Source: Collinsella sp. AK_207A (lineage in GTDB: Bacteria; Actinomycetota; Coriobacteriia; Coriobacteriales; Coriobacteriaceae). From it: a DNA stretch of 64,000 nucleotides. The translations under genes and the position numbers were made by a program. This document shows, in pieces, positions 4,594-8,544 of this stretch. How positions within the stretch are numbered: the first letter of the stretch is position 1; each line of letters begins with the position of its first letter. The notes below the pieces were generated by a model. That model was not told the DNA's origin and searched no databases. It saw nothing but the letters and a program-made list of their open reading frames with translations. The DNA lies in contig NZ_CABWID010000015.1 in assembly GCF_902501965.1 (NCBI RefSeq), positions 62,001 to 126,000 on the forward strand. Reading direction: 5' to 3'.

Positions 4594-5325
4594 ATGGCGG
4601 ACGGTGTGCTGGGAGGCGCCCTGGAGTTCGCCCTCGAGACCCTGTCCCCCACGCGCTGCGCGGGCTGCGAGCGCCCGGGAGCGCTCATCTGCGATCGCTG
4701 TCTCTCCCGGTTCCAGCTCATCGACCCGCGGCTATCCTGCACGCGGTGCGGCGCCCCTTTTGGCTCCCTGCTCTGCACGGAGTGCCAAGGCGAGCACGGC
4801 GCGTGCGAGCGGGTACTCGCGGCGGCTTCCTTCGAAGACCCGGTGCCGCGCATCGTCCGTGCGTACAAAGACGGCGGCGAGCGCCGCCTGGCCCCGCTCA
4901 TCGCCGACCTGCTGCTCGATACCGCCGAGCATGCCGAGCGCGTGGCCCCGGAACGGTACGGCGGCATCCTCTCGGCGGCGGACGCCATAACGTTCGTGCC
5001 CGTCACGGCCGAGGCCTTCCGCCGCCGCGGCTTCGACCATATGGAGGACGTGGCCCGCGCGTTTTCAGGGCGCTCGGGAACACCCCTGGTAGATGCATTG
5101 ATCAAGCATGGTCGGGCCGATCAGCGCGCCCTTGGCCGTGCAGGGCGCATGGCGGCGGGGCGCGATGGCTACGAGGTGGCGGCGGAGGTGGGCGGCAAGC
5201 ATCTGCTCCTGCTCGACGACGTGATCACCACCGGCGCCACGATGAACGCCGCGGCATCCGCGCTGCTCGCTGCCGGCGCCGCGCGGGTGGATGCCCTTGC
5301 CCTGGCGCGGGTCTGGGGCAGCTGA
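4594..5325 (+). CDS. comF: ComF-family phosphoribosyltransferase-like protein
   Basis: 243 aa. The N-terminal zinc-ribbon cysteines are CAGCERPG...CDRC, then CTRCGAPF...CTEC (residues 22-65). The type I PRTase PRPP loop LLLLDDVITTGAT is near residue 206. Family members take part in natural transformation in some bacteria; the enzymatic role is unproven. The start at 4594 is chosen for the GGGAGGG just before it; an upstream in-frame ATG at 4561 lacks such a site. The gene sits directly upstream of a structured RNA region and, further on, of hpf/raiA. The same order (comFC, RNA, raiA) is known in Clostridia. Confidence 0.85.
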   Translation: MADGVLGGALEFALETLSPTRCAGCERPGALICDRCLSRFQLIDPRLSCTRCGAPFGSLLCTECQGEHGACERVLAAASFEDPVPRIVRAYKDGGERRLAPLIADLLLDTAEHAERVAPERYGGILSAADAITFVPVTAEAFRRRGFDHMEDVARAFSGRSGTPLVDALIKHGRADQRALGRAGRMAAGRDGYEVAAEVGGKHLLLLDDVITTGATMNAAASALLAAGAARVDALALARVWGS

Positions 5326-5405
5326 TACCAACCCCTGGGCACGTTCTCCGGCAAAACCTGCGCATTCGTGCACTTCGAGTGAATTCACCCATCTATACAT
5401 TAACC

Positions 5406-5435
5406 TTCAACTAGAGCTTCAAGCTGTTATATACT
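5406..5435 (+). promoter_or_regulatory. Promoter for the structured RNA
   Basis: A TTCAAC -35 (5406-5411) and a TATACT -10 (5430-5435) are separated by 18 bp in a locally AT-rich stretch. They would start transcription near 5442, about 315 nt before the next start codon. This is among the better sigma-70-like matches in the window. Confidence 0.55.
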
Positions 5436-5441
5436 GTCCCG

Positions 5442-5736
5442 TGTTCCTTCCAGGCTGTGGTTGCGGACGGCGTGCCTTGCGTGAGCGGGCTCTCGTCCAA
5501 GTCCAGGACAGACGCGGTCAAAGGGATCCACGTAAGCGGTGGCGTGCGCGCCGTCGCGATCATGGCGCGTCCTAGAAGTCAGTCGCACCGTCCGACACCT
5601 TCGGGGGCACAGGGCCCCTGCGGACGAGCGGGCTAGTCGTGGTGCCGCCGCAGCGGCAGAAGCAAACGTCCCGGTGCGCAAGTGTGGGGTCAAAGACCAG
5701 GTCAGCTGGGGGAACAAACCGGTGGAGAAGAACCGG
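5442..5736 (+). ncRNA. Structured RNA between comF and raiA; candidate raiA-motif RNA
   Basis: About 300 nt without convincing coding sequence is packed with hairpins. GGACG/CGTCC (5465-5469 with 5494-5498) encloses GCC-TGC-GTGA-GCG-GGC, a GNRA-capped stem (5474-5490). There is a 6-bp stem CGTCCG/CGGACG (5589-5626), TGCCGC-CGCA-GCGGCA (5643-5658), GGTC-AAA-GACC near 5690, and CCGGT/ACCGG (5719-5736). A promoter lies just upstream. The raiA-motif RNA is a known large RNA of Clostridia and Actinobacteria near raiA, often between comFC and raiA. Here comF is directly upstream and raiA 1.2 kb downstream. The structure is seen; the family name is inference from context. It could instead be a long 5' leader of the lipoprotein gene. 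Confidence 0.55.
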
Positions 5737-5757
5737 CCGGGGAAGGTAGGATCAACC

Positions 5758-6762
5758 ATGAAGAAGGCAATCTCCGCATCCGCCCGCCTCCGGGCGCTTG
5801 CGGTCGCGCTGTTGCTGGCCGTTTCGCTGAGCGGCTGCTCGCTGCTCACGCCGTCCCGCGCGGACGTTTCCCCCGAGCAAACCCTCGTCAAGCTCACCAC
5901 GCCGACCATCAAGACCAAGGGCGTGCTTACGGTGGGCTACACCAACGAGGACGCGCCGCAGGTCTGCACCGATGCGAACGGTAACCTCACCGGCTATGCC
6001 GTGGACGTGGCCCGTGCCATCGCCAAGAGCCAGGGCTTGAGCGTCACGTTCGTGAGCGGTGCGAGTGCCGACGACCTCTCTGAGGTCGACCTTATGCTGG
6101 GTGCCACGACGGACGACTCCTCGGGCACCGTCTCGGTGGCGGGCAACTACCTGGAAGACGCCCCGGCGCTCTTCACCAAGGCCTCTGCCGACGGATCCGC
6201 GCCGGGCAGCCTGAGCGTCCAGGACCTTTCGAGCGCGACCATCGCCGTGCAGGATAAATCTCAGACGCAGGACGTGCTTGCCAAGTGCGGCATCAGCGCC
6301 CAGCAGAAGACCTACTCCGACGTGAACTCCTGCCTGGACGCTCTCGCCAAGGGCGAGGTCCAGTACGCCGCCTGCGACGCCACGGCTGGTGCCTACCTGG
6401 CCCGCGCGCACGCCGACATCGTCTTTGCGGGGGCCTTCGATTCCACCACCACCTACGGCCTCGCGATGAAGACCACGAACGCCGAGCTCGTGAAGGCCAT
6501 CGGCGACGCGCTCAGCCAGATGACGGTGGACGGCACGCTGGACGCCATCCACCAGGCCTGGTACGGCTCGCTCCCCATGAGCCTCTCCGATGCGACCGTC
6601 TCGGGTATCACCACGTCGGCCGAGCGCAAGCAGGCGGAGGAAGCGGCCAAGCCGCAGACCGCCACCGACGCTGCGGGGGCCTCCTCGGACGGTGCGTCTG
6701 CGGACGGTACCTCCACGTCGAGCACGGATTCCTCCGCATCCACCACGGATGCCGCCGCGTAG
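5758..6762 (+). CDS. Family 3 extracellular solute-binding lipoprotein
   Basis: 334 aa. The signal peptide has a lipobox LSGC (Cys27). GVLTVGYTNEDAPQVCTDANG and TGYAVDVARAIAKSQGL are typical of family 3 (amino acid) ABC binding proteins. A Ser/Thr/Ala-rich tail follows residue 300. The ATG at 5758 is chosen because it begins the signal peptide and GGAAGGTAGG precedes it; the frame extends upstream to 5539 only by running through the structured RNA region. No permease or ATPase gene is adjacent, so its partners are encoded elsewhere. Confidence 0.85.
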   Translation: MKKAISASARLRALAVALLLAVSLSGCSLLTPSRADVSPEQTLVKLTTPTIKTKGVLTVGYTNEDAPQVCTDANGNLTGYAVDVARAIAKSQGLSVTFVSGASADDLSEVDLMLGATTDDSSGTVSVAGNYLEDAPALFTKASADGSAPGSLSVQDLSSATIAVQDKSQTQDVLAKCGISAQQKTYSDVNSCLDALAKGEVQYAACDATAGAYLARAHADIVFAGAFDSTTTYGLAMKTTNAELVKAIGDALSQMTVDGTLDAIHQAWYGSLPMSLSDATVSGITTSAERKQAEEAAKPQTATDAAGASSDGASADGTSTSSTDSSASTTDAAA

Positions 6763-6812
6763 CCGCGGGGCGCATAATTCGACGGATCGATTGTCAAGGC
6801 GCAATCGGTAAG

Positions 6813-6848
6813 CGGGCGATTCCACGAATGGGGTCGCCCGTTCGCGTA
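6813..6848 (+). terminator. Probable terminator after the solute-binding lipoprotein gene
   Basis: CGGGCGA (6813-6819) pairs with TCGCCCG (6834-6840) across a 14-nt loop. A short T-containing tail follows rather than a clean T-run. It separates the lipoprotein gene from hpf. Confidence 0.45.
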
Positions 6849-6925
6849 TTTGGGTACAACACGGATACCGGCCGCCCGTTGACGAGCGGTCGAGGGAATG
6901 TACCCGGAGAGTAAGGAGCGGCCTC

Positions 6926-7513
6926 ATGGATATCAAGGTCTCTGGACGCAAGACAACCGTTACCGACGCCCTGCGCAACCACGTAGACGAGAAGATTGGG
7001 AACGCTTGCACTGTCTTCGATATCGAGCCGATGACCGTTGATGTGGTGCTTCGCTACGAGAAGAACCCCTCCAACCCGACGCCCGCCATCGTGGAGGCCA
7101 CGGTGCGCGCCCGCGGCTCGGTGATTCGCGTGGCCGAGCACGGGGCCGATATGTACGCCGCCATTGACGCCGCGGCCGAGAAGGTCACGCGTCAGCTGCG
7201 CAAGTTCAAGACCAAGGTGGTCGACAACCGTCAGCAGGGTGCCAGCGCCGCGGACGTGGTGCCGGTGGAGCGCGTGGACGACCTGGCCGACCTGCTTATT
7301 CCCGAGGATGAGGAAGACGATCTGCTCGTGCGCGAGAAGGTCATCGACATCACCCCGATGACCGAGGAGCAGGCACTCGTGCAGACCGATCTGCTGGGCC
7401 ACGACTTCTATGTGTTCGAGAACAGCACGACCGGTCTCATCAATGTGGTGTATCACCGTAAGAATGGTGGATACGGCATCATCAAGCCCAAGATAGAGGA
7501 TCTGGAAGGGTAA
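6926..7513 (+). CDS. hpf: Long-form ribosome hibernation promoting factor (HPF/RaiA)
   Basis: 195 aa, the length of the long HPF that dimerises ribosomes into 100S particles in stationary phase. The N-terminal beta-alpha-beta-beta-beta-alpha domain spans about 1-105 (MDIKVSGRKTTVTDALRNHV) and binds the 30S decoding region. A charged linker of about 25 residues follows. The C-terminal dimerisation domain contains EEQALVQTDLLGHDFYVF and VVYHRKNGGYGIIKP. AAGGAGCGGCCTC precedes the ATG. In the raiA-motif RNA literature this is the neighbouring gene, which supports the RNA call upstream. Confidence 0.95.
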   Translation: MDIKVSGRKTTVTDALRNHVDEKIGNACTVFDIEPMTVDVVLRYEKNPSNPTPAIVEATVRARGSVIRVAEHGADMYAAIDAAAEKVTRQLRKFKTKVVDNRQQGASAADVVPVERVDDLADLLIPEDEEDDLLVREKVIDITPMTEEQALVQTDLLGHDFYVFENSTTGLINVVYHRKNGGYGIIKPKIEDLEG

Positions 7514-7538
7514 ACTGGACCATCAGCATGACTTGGAT

Positions 7539-7571
7539 GGCGGCCATCCCGTGCGGGACGGCCGCCTTTTT
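7539..7571 (+). terminator. Intrinsic terminator after hpf
   Basis: GGCGGCC (7539-7545) and GGCCGCC (7560-7566) form a 7-bp stem, extended inside by ATCCCG/CGGGA pairing, and are followed by TTTTT. Confidence 0.9.
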
Positions 7572-7587
7572 GGTTGAGAGGGTTTTC

Positions 7588-8544
7588 ATGAGCGTGAAGA
7601 ACACGTCCACCGGCCATGGGGACCGTTGCCGCATCGTGATCGATACCTGCGCCGACCTCACCCCCGAGATTGCCGCCACGCTCGACGTGGACATCCTGGG
7701 TTTCCCCTACATTCTGGACGGCCGGGAGTACACGGACGACATCTGGACGTCCATCACGCCCAAGGAGTTCTACGACAAACTGCGGGCCGGTTCCAAGGCC
7801 TCGACCTCGGCGGTCTCGCTCGGCCGTTATCTGGAGTTCTTCACCCAGTGCGCCGAGGAGGGTACGCCCACGGTGTACCTCTGCTTTACGAGCGCGCTTT
7901 CCAGCAGTTACGACGCTGCGTGCTCGGCGGCCGAGGAGGTGCGCCGCACGCATCCCGACTTCGAGCTTTACGTGGTGGACAACGCCCTGCCCTGCTCGTG
8001 CGGCGAGCTGCTGGCCATGGAGGCCGTGCGCCAGCGCGCAGCGGGCCTCACGGCGGCGCAGCTCGCGGAGTGGGCCAACGAGGCCAAGTACTACGTGCAC
8101 GGCTACTTCACCCTGGACAGCCTGGACGCCCTGGCGGCGGGTGGGCGCATTCCCCCGGCGGCGGCCCAGCTCTCGGCAAAGCTCGACGTCAAGCCCTCGC
8201 TCTCCTTCGACCTGGCCGGCTCGCTCACGCTCACGGGCGTGAACCGGGGCCGCAAGAAGGCGCTGAAGTCGCTCGTGAAGTCGTTCCACGACAACTACGT
8301 GCTCGATCCGAGCATGCCCATTGCCGTCGTCTCGTCGGATGCCGAAAAGGACGCCGATTGGCTGGAGGGCACCATTCGCAAGGAGGAGGGCTGCGGCGAG
8401 CTCACCATCCTGCGCGGGTCCGTGGGGCCCACGATCGGCGCGCACGTGGGCGCCGGCATGGTGGCGGTGATCTTCTGGGGCCGCAACCGCGCCGAGAAGA
8501 TCAGCCTGTCCGACCGTATCGCCAAGAAGGTTCGCGGCGTCTAG
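7588..8544 (+). CDS. DegV family fatty-acid-binding protein
   Basis: 318 aa. DegV/FakB-type proteins hold a fatty acid for phosphorylation by FakA. IVIDTCADLTPEI near the N-terminus replaces the usual TDSSxDL. CFTSALSSSYDAACSAAEEV and LDSLDAL-AAGGRIP are family signatures. The start at 7588 has GAGAGGG upstream; the open frame to 7528 runs through the hpf terminator and is not used. No fakA (DAK2-type) gene is nearby, so the kinase partner would be encoded elsewhere. Confidence 0.9.
   Translation: MSVKNTSTGHGDRCRIVIDTCADLTPEIAATLDVDILGFPYILDGREYTDDIWTSITPKEFYDKLRAGSKASTSAVSLGRYLEFFTQCAEEGTPTVYLCFTSALSSSYDAACSAAEEVRRTHPDFELYVVDNALPCSCGELLAMEAVRQRAAGLTAAQLAEWANEAKYYVHGYFTLDSLDALAAGGRIPPAAAQLSAKLDVKPSLSFDLAGSLTLTGVNRGRKKALKSLVKSFHDNYVLDPSMPIAVVSSDAEKDADWLEGTIRKEEGCGELTILRGSVGPTIGAHVGAGMVAVIFWGRNRAEKISLSDRIAKKVRGV

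Follow-up and report, generated by a model that had tools for sequence, protein, structure and literature searches.

A noncoding RNA of the raiA-motif (ModT) family lies directly upstream of a gene for an amino-acid-type SBP_bac_3 lipoprotein (SBP gene below) in Collinsella sp. AK_207A, and this arrangement is the standard one for the whole class Coriobacteriia, not an oddity of this genome. Our favored explanation, to which we assign a probability of about 0.6, is that the RNA has its own -10 promoter, is co-transcribed with the SBP gene, is released by processing, and acts in trans. In the window, that is, the whole stretch of 64,000 nucleotides that was analyzed, the order is comF, raiA RNA, SBP, and raiA/hpf, and the comFC and raiA linkage of the family is thus present. 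The features are as follows:

4594-5325, plus strand: comFC-like gene of the ComF family, preceding the RNA (TIGR00201 at E = 7.1e-20, which falls short of the curated cut-off)
5430-5435, plus strand: TATACT, the -10 box of a promoter belonging to the RNA itself, with a weak -35 (sequence and conserved position)
5445-5714, plus strand: raiA-motif (ModT) RNA, RF03072, 270 nt (cmscan and covariation in 86 sequences)
5465-5498, plus strand: optional P2 hairpin with a GUGA (GNRA) cap, an insertion relative to the Rfam consensus (fold and comparison)
5511-5516 with 5566-5571, plus strand: long-range helix of six pairs (covariation in 86 sequences)
5715-5757, plus strand: 43-nt spacer from the RNA to the SBP start codon, with a purine-rich, ribosome-binding-like GGAAGGTAGGA
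5758-6762, plus strand: gene for an orphan lipoprotein, SBP_bac_3 (family 3, amino-acid type), 334 aa (PF00497, E = 4.5e-16; lipobox)
6926-7513, plus strand: raiA/hpf, ribosome hibernation factor (TIGR00741 above cut-off; PF02482 and PF16321)

The initial annotation had described a structured RNA at 5406-5757, tentatively the raiA motif, with comF upstream and a binding-protein gene between the RNA and raiA. Profile matches bear out this gene order, and the RNA is real, the remainder of the interval being the promoter and the spacer up to the SBP start at 5758. The ComF-family gene also has a Pribosyltran match above cut-off, the nearest solved sequence relative of the SBP is AncQR (4zv1), and raiA/hpf, which gave the genome's single S30AE match, is followed by degV on the side away from the RNA.

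The identification of 5445-5714 as the raiA-motif RNA is carried by the covariance model and by covariation. RF03072 matched over its full length (model positions 1-209 of 209), scoring 138.6 bits where the gathering score is 101.3, with an E-value of 3.9e-34 in a cmscan search of the 64-kb window; a single copy was found in the 2.1-Mb genome, and none in 14 control genomes when the default E-value was applied. When 86 RNAs of the class were aligned by sequence only and the Rfam structure was imposed on them, 81.9% of cells were paired, compared to 37-43% in controls whose 3' partners had been slid by 1-3, and compensatory double changes seen in at least two sequences affected 27 of 57 pairs, compared to 10-17 in the same controls. 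Conservation among the 86 RNAs is also strong in the unpaired core, and the reading frames that cross 5445-5714 overlie sequence conserved as RNA. Of the checks that the initial annotation had proposed, the two computational ones, an Rfam-model search and a covariation analysis, thus came out in favor of the family assignment. It is the covariance-model score and the covariation, not the fold energy, that establish a structured RNA: with 67% G+C, the region 5445-5757 had a z score of -0.16 against dinucleotide shuffles, which is uninformative as a proof of structure, so that the "at least five stable hairpins" noted earlier are no evidence by themselves. Such a z score is what would be expected if the region held only chance hairpins of a G+C-rich intergenic stretch, or a lipoprotein-mRNA leader without structure. 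We give this reading practically no credence, since it is refuted by a full-length match far over the gathering score with none in the control genomes, by strong covariation, and by the near-universal occurrence of the RNA among complete genomes of the class.

Within the RNA, every one of the 86 sequences forms all six pairs of the helix between 5511-5516 and 5566-5571, and three of these pairs show 8-19 compensatory double changes. The cryo-EM structure contains a pseudoknot, pk-1, that joins the P3 loop to the P5-P6 junction (PMC11751092), and from the numbering we infer that the helix corresponds to it. The family's other pseudoknot, pk-2, comprises two base pairs. Seven pairs near 5531-5541/5551-5561 have poor covariation support, probably because the variable P5 arm is out of register there. 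The GTGA-capped stem singled out earlier is indeed there, as the optional P2 helix; GUGA belongs to the GNRA loops. The P2 stem is present in 62 of the 71 measurable copies, and a role of its GNRA cap as a conserved docking loop was rejected, the cap occurring in only 11 of the 71.

The "good promoter" of the initial annotation is upheld by conservation rather than by its match to consensus. A scan of 5300-7600 found neither a consensus sigma-70 promoter nor a terminator, and the window's own -10 box departs from the extended form TGnTAnnnT. A -10-like box (TAnnnT) nevertheless stands at the same position in 86 of 86 copies, which shows that the promoter is real despite the weak -35, and the extended -10 is found in 69 of the 86, whereas a control stretch farther upstream has it in 1 of the 86 and shuffles have it in a mean of 1.5. 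From the position of the box, transcription would be expected to start near 5441-5445.

Of 43 genomes of the genus, 42 contain the RNA, as do 64 of 65 of the family and 284 of 296 sampled from the class; a looser repeat search of the thirteen genomes without a match, many of which are incomplete, gave nothing above the cut-off. An SBP_bac_3 gene follows the RNA in 98 of 101 loci, 97 of them recognized by tblastn and one by profile (L113, the same locus as L021). The intervening SBP gene, which the initial annotation had called unusual, is therefore the rule in the genus, the family, and the class. An independent scan of named genomes gave the same picture, with an SBP gene behind the RNA in Collinsella, Enorma, Olsenella, Atopobium, Parafannyhessea, Eggerthella, and other Coriobacteriia records and none behind it in Acidimicrobiia and Clostridia records. 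The few SBP matches from outside the class include one 223 nt away in a Bacillota MAG (L241) and one 732 nt away in an "Actinomycetes" MAG (L275).

The SBP gene and raiA can each be missing from the vicinity of the RNA. Four loci have no SBP gene after the RNA (L111, L130, and L138 in the set of 101 and L022 in the other set), and in these, raiA or a raiA-sized frame comes next. Conversely, family f3 and most loci from outside the order have the SBP gene and no raiA gene within ~3.5 kb. Since the RNA is kept in both situations, neither neighbor is indispensable to it. Three of the four loci that lack the SBP gene (L111, L138, and L022) belong to genomes G056, G173, and G044, of one genus of family f2, and carry an ATTTT- or TTTATTTT-like tract after the RNA; the fourth, L130, is from genome G252. 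The distance from the RNA to raiA is ~210-290 nt in all four, which form a natural test case of a raiA RNA without an SBP.

The surroundings of the SBP gene vary with phylogeny. In all 15 loci from outside Coriobacteriales, a permease and an ATPase are encoded behind it, usually with a second SBP between, whereas the 81 loci of families f1, f2, and f3 have an orphan SBP gene without a permease gene after it. Two permeases of the RNA-led ABC operons (L116:4790-6130 and L123:4712-6058) have an N-terminal DUF2808-like region of ~150-200 residues before BPD_transp_1, possibly an extra sensor or binding domain.

The raiA RNAs of other Actinomycetota classes belong to the same family and have comF upstream and raiA downstream where the loci reach far enough, but they are shorter than that of the window and are often followed by a T-tract. 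Among 28 loci of these classes (L140-L167), raiA lies 166-764 nt after the RNA in 26, and an SBP gene was found behind the RNA in none. The earlier statement that the binding-protein gene "has come between" thus holds at the scale of the phylum, the other classes having the RNA followed directly by raiA. A T-run (at least four T within 30 nt after the RNA) is seen in 52% of the loci of the other classes and in 6% of the Coriobacteriia loci with an SBP, a contrast with a Mann-Whitney p of 7e-8, uncorrected for shared ancestry. The simplest history, as reconstructed from synteny alone, would be that, at the base of the class, the insertion of an amino-acid ABC operon separated the RNA from raiA, that the T-tract was lost, and that the operon was afterwards cut down to a lone SBP gene.

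Such a history could also account for the arrangement by passive linkage, with the operon inserted a single time behind the RNA and the SBP gene simply making use of a strong RNA promoter. This is suggested by the order of RNA, raiA, and T-tract in the other classes, by the reduction of the operon to a lone SBP gene in the Coriobacteriaceae and in the Atopobiaceae-like and Eggerthellaceae-like families, and by the four loci in which the SBP gene is absent and the RNA was not lost. Yet the lone SBP gene has kept its place beside the RNA even in very distant families, in some of which raiA has moved away. Without selection, one insertion would not lead us to expect this much, and we regard passive linkage as rather improbable.

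The space between the RNA and the SBP gene is small. Outside family f1 (Coriobacteriaceae), the distance from the RNA to the SBP start has a median of 34 nt and is at most 38 nt in 34 of 44 loci; in f1, the median is 77.5 nt (range, 27-124), compared to 43 nt in the window. The start codons were picked by a rule that favors a ribosome-binding-like sequence and a lipobox, and single distances may err. A spacer of 34 nt would leave room for a ribosome-binding site and none for a terminator or a promoter. The terminator scan of 5300-7600 found no intrinsic terminator in the 43-nt spacer of the window, and an extended -10 occurs between the 3' part of the RNA and the SBP gene in only 1 of 82 loci (the last 50 nt of the RNA plus the spacer). 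Together with the depletion of T-runs, these results point to co-transcription of the RNA and the SBP gene, and the most likely source of the SBP mRNA is the promoter of the RNA or one farther upstream. In several of the longer spacers of Collinsella relatives (e.g., L053, L060, L095, and L098), the RNA is followed by a G+C-rich hairpin without a T-tract, and such hairpins could be 3'-end-protecting or processing elements.

This proximity raises the question of whether, in Coriobacteriia, the RNA serves mainly in cis, as a leader that, like a riboswitch or an attenuator, would respond to a metabolite or to the growth state and control the translation or the stability of the SBP or ABC-transporter mRNA. 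Amino-acid riboswitches and transporter leaders place a structured RNA shortly before an amino-acid uptake gene, as is the case here, and the window RNA has the required position, 43 nt before the SBP gene in a presumed 5' leader if the two are co-transcribed. The near-constant short spacing outside f1 fits a leader, as do the SBP_bac_3 gene of the 98 loci and its place at the head of an SBP-permease-ATPase operon in the 15 loci from outside Coriobacteriales; moreover, Rfam 15 types RF03072 as "Cis-reg; riboswitch". We know of no ligand for the raiA RNA family. In the minimum-energy fold of the window, the 5' strand of P1 (CCUUCC) pairs with the ribosome-binding-like GGAAGG, but across 82 loci, the pairing between this strand and the spacer comes to -9.9 kcal/mol, compared to -9.7 with swapped spacers and -10.2 after shuffling. 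An anti-ribosome-binding-site switch is therefore seen only in the minimum-energy fold of the window, and this pairing gives no indication of a conserved expression platform. The RNA further differs from amino-acid riboswitches in that its family is trans-acting in clostridia, where complementation in trans argues against a cis leader (PMC11706538). The spacer also ranges from 27 to 124 nt within the window's own family, and the RNA is retained where the SBP gene is absent and where the RNA is a free-standing unit. We thus find it unlikely that the RNA is mainly a leader.

We return to the reading that we favor, a trans-acting RNA released from a joint transcript. The persistence of the RNA without an SBP and without a nearby raiA indicates that its core function is independent of its neighbors. 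According to this model, the RNA and the SBP gene would be made as a single transcript, from which the compact RNA would be freed by processing or left as a stable decay product; the freed RNA would act in trans, tuning the transition between growth and stationary phase as the clostridial ModT does, and the remaining transcript would allow a modest expression of the amino-acid-binding lipoprotein. The trans action, the abundance, and the stability on which the model draws are those reported for the raiA/ModT family (PMC11706538). The trans function was shown solely in clostridia, with phenotypes that include sporulation. To our knowledge, sporulation is not a trait to be expected in Collinsella.

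The main rival to a purely trans-acting RNA is one with an additional, cis-regulatory side role, which this model would allow. In a stronger version, the gene of a raiA RNA that had been free-standing would have lost the terminator when the class arose, become fused to an amino-acid ABC-transporter operon a few tens of bases downstream, and gained or revealed a cis role as a dual-function RNA. This seems to us distinctly unlikely; if it were true, the ligand or signal of the raiA RNA would relate to amino-acid supply.

The window RNA shares its core helices, a pk-1-like helix, and the full-length model with ModT of Clostridioides difficile and Clostridium acetobutylicum, which likewise has its own promoter, comF upstream, and raiA in the neighborhood (PMC11706538, PMC11751092). 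With 270 nt, compared to ~210-215 nt in clostridial ModT, it is the longer of the two because of a longer P2 and insertions in the P8 region. It also differs in having the SBP gene 43 nt behind without an intrinsic terminator, whereas the long isoform of C. difficile ends at one (PMC11706538). Family-wide, comFC is found upstream in 74% and raiA downstream in 66% of cases (PMC11706538), and a review credits the linkage to periplasmic-binding proteins to the original raiA-motif paper, Weinberg 2017 (PMC11477304). The family, its structure, and its linkage to comF, raiA, and periplasmic-binding proteins were thus already known (PMC11706538, PMC11751092, PMC12286853, PMC11477304); what we measured here are the class-wide counts, the short spacing, the reduction of the operon, and the terminator contrast, for which we do not claim priority.

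The raiA/ModT RNA is a complex and abundant bacterial RNA of unknown biochemical function, and the studies cited above center on spore-forming clostridia, in which it is a separate transcript. A gut and environmental class in which the RNA is near-universal and stands near an amino-acid uptake gene without a terminator constitutes a second setting, and the Coriobacteriia arrangement offers a concrete partner pathway for testing the function of raiA/ModT.

Two records depart from the general picture. Contig DYIV01000011.1 (L171), from a mine-metagenome MAG and titled Slackia heliotrinireducens, is without an SBP gene behind the RNA; the title is apparently a mislabel, and we liken the locus to L147 (genome G588), of the same phylum and a different class. 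Genome G186, of the window's family, contains two raiA RNAs, L082 on contig C41 and L083/L177 on the 3.2-kb contig C133; the SBP start of the C133 copy is almost identical to that of L127 of family f2, and this second copy, which was set aside, is probably a contaminating contig and not a duplication.
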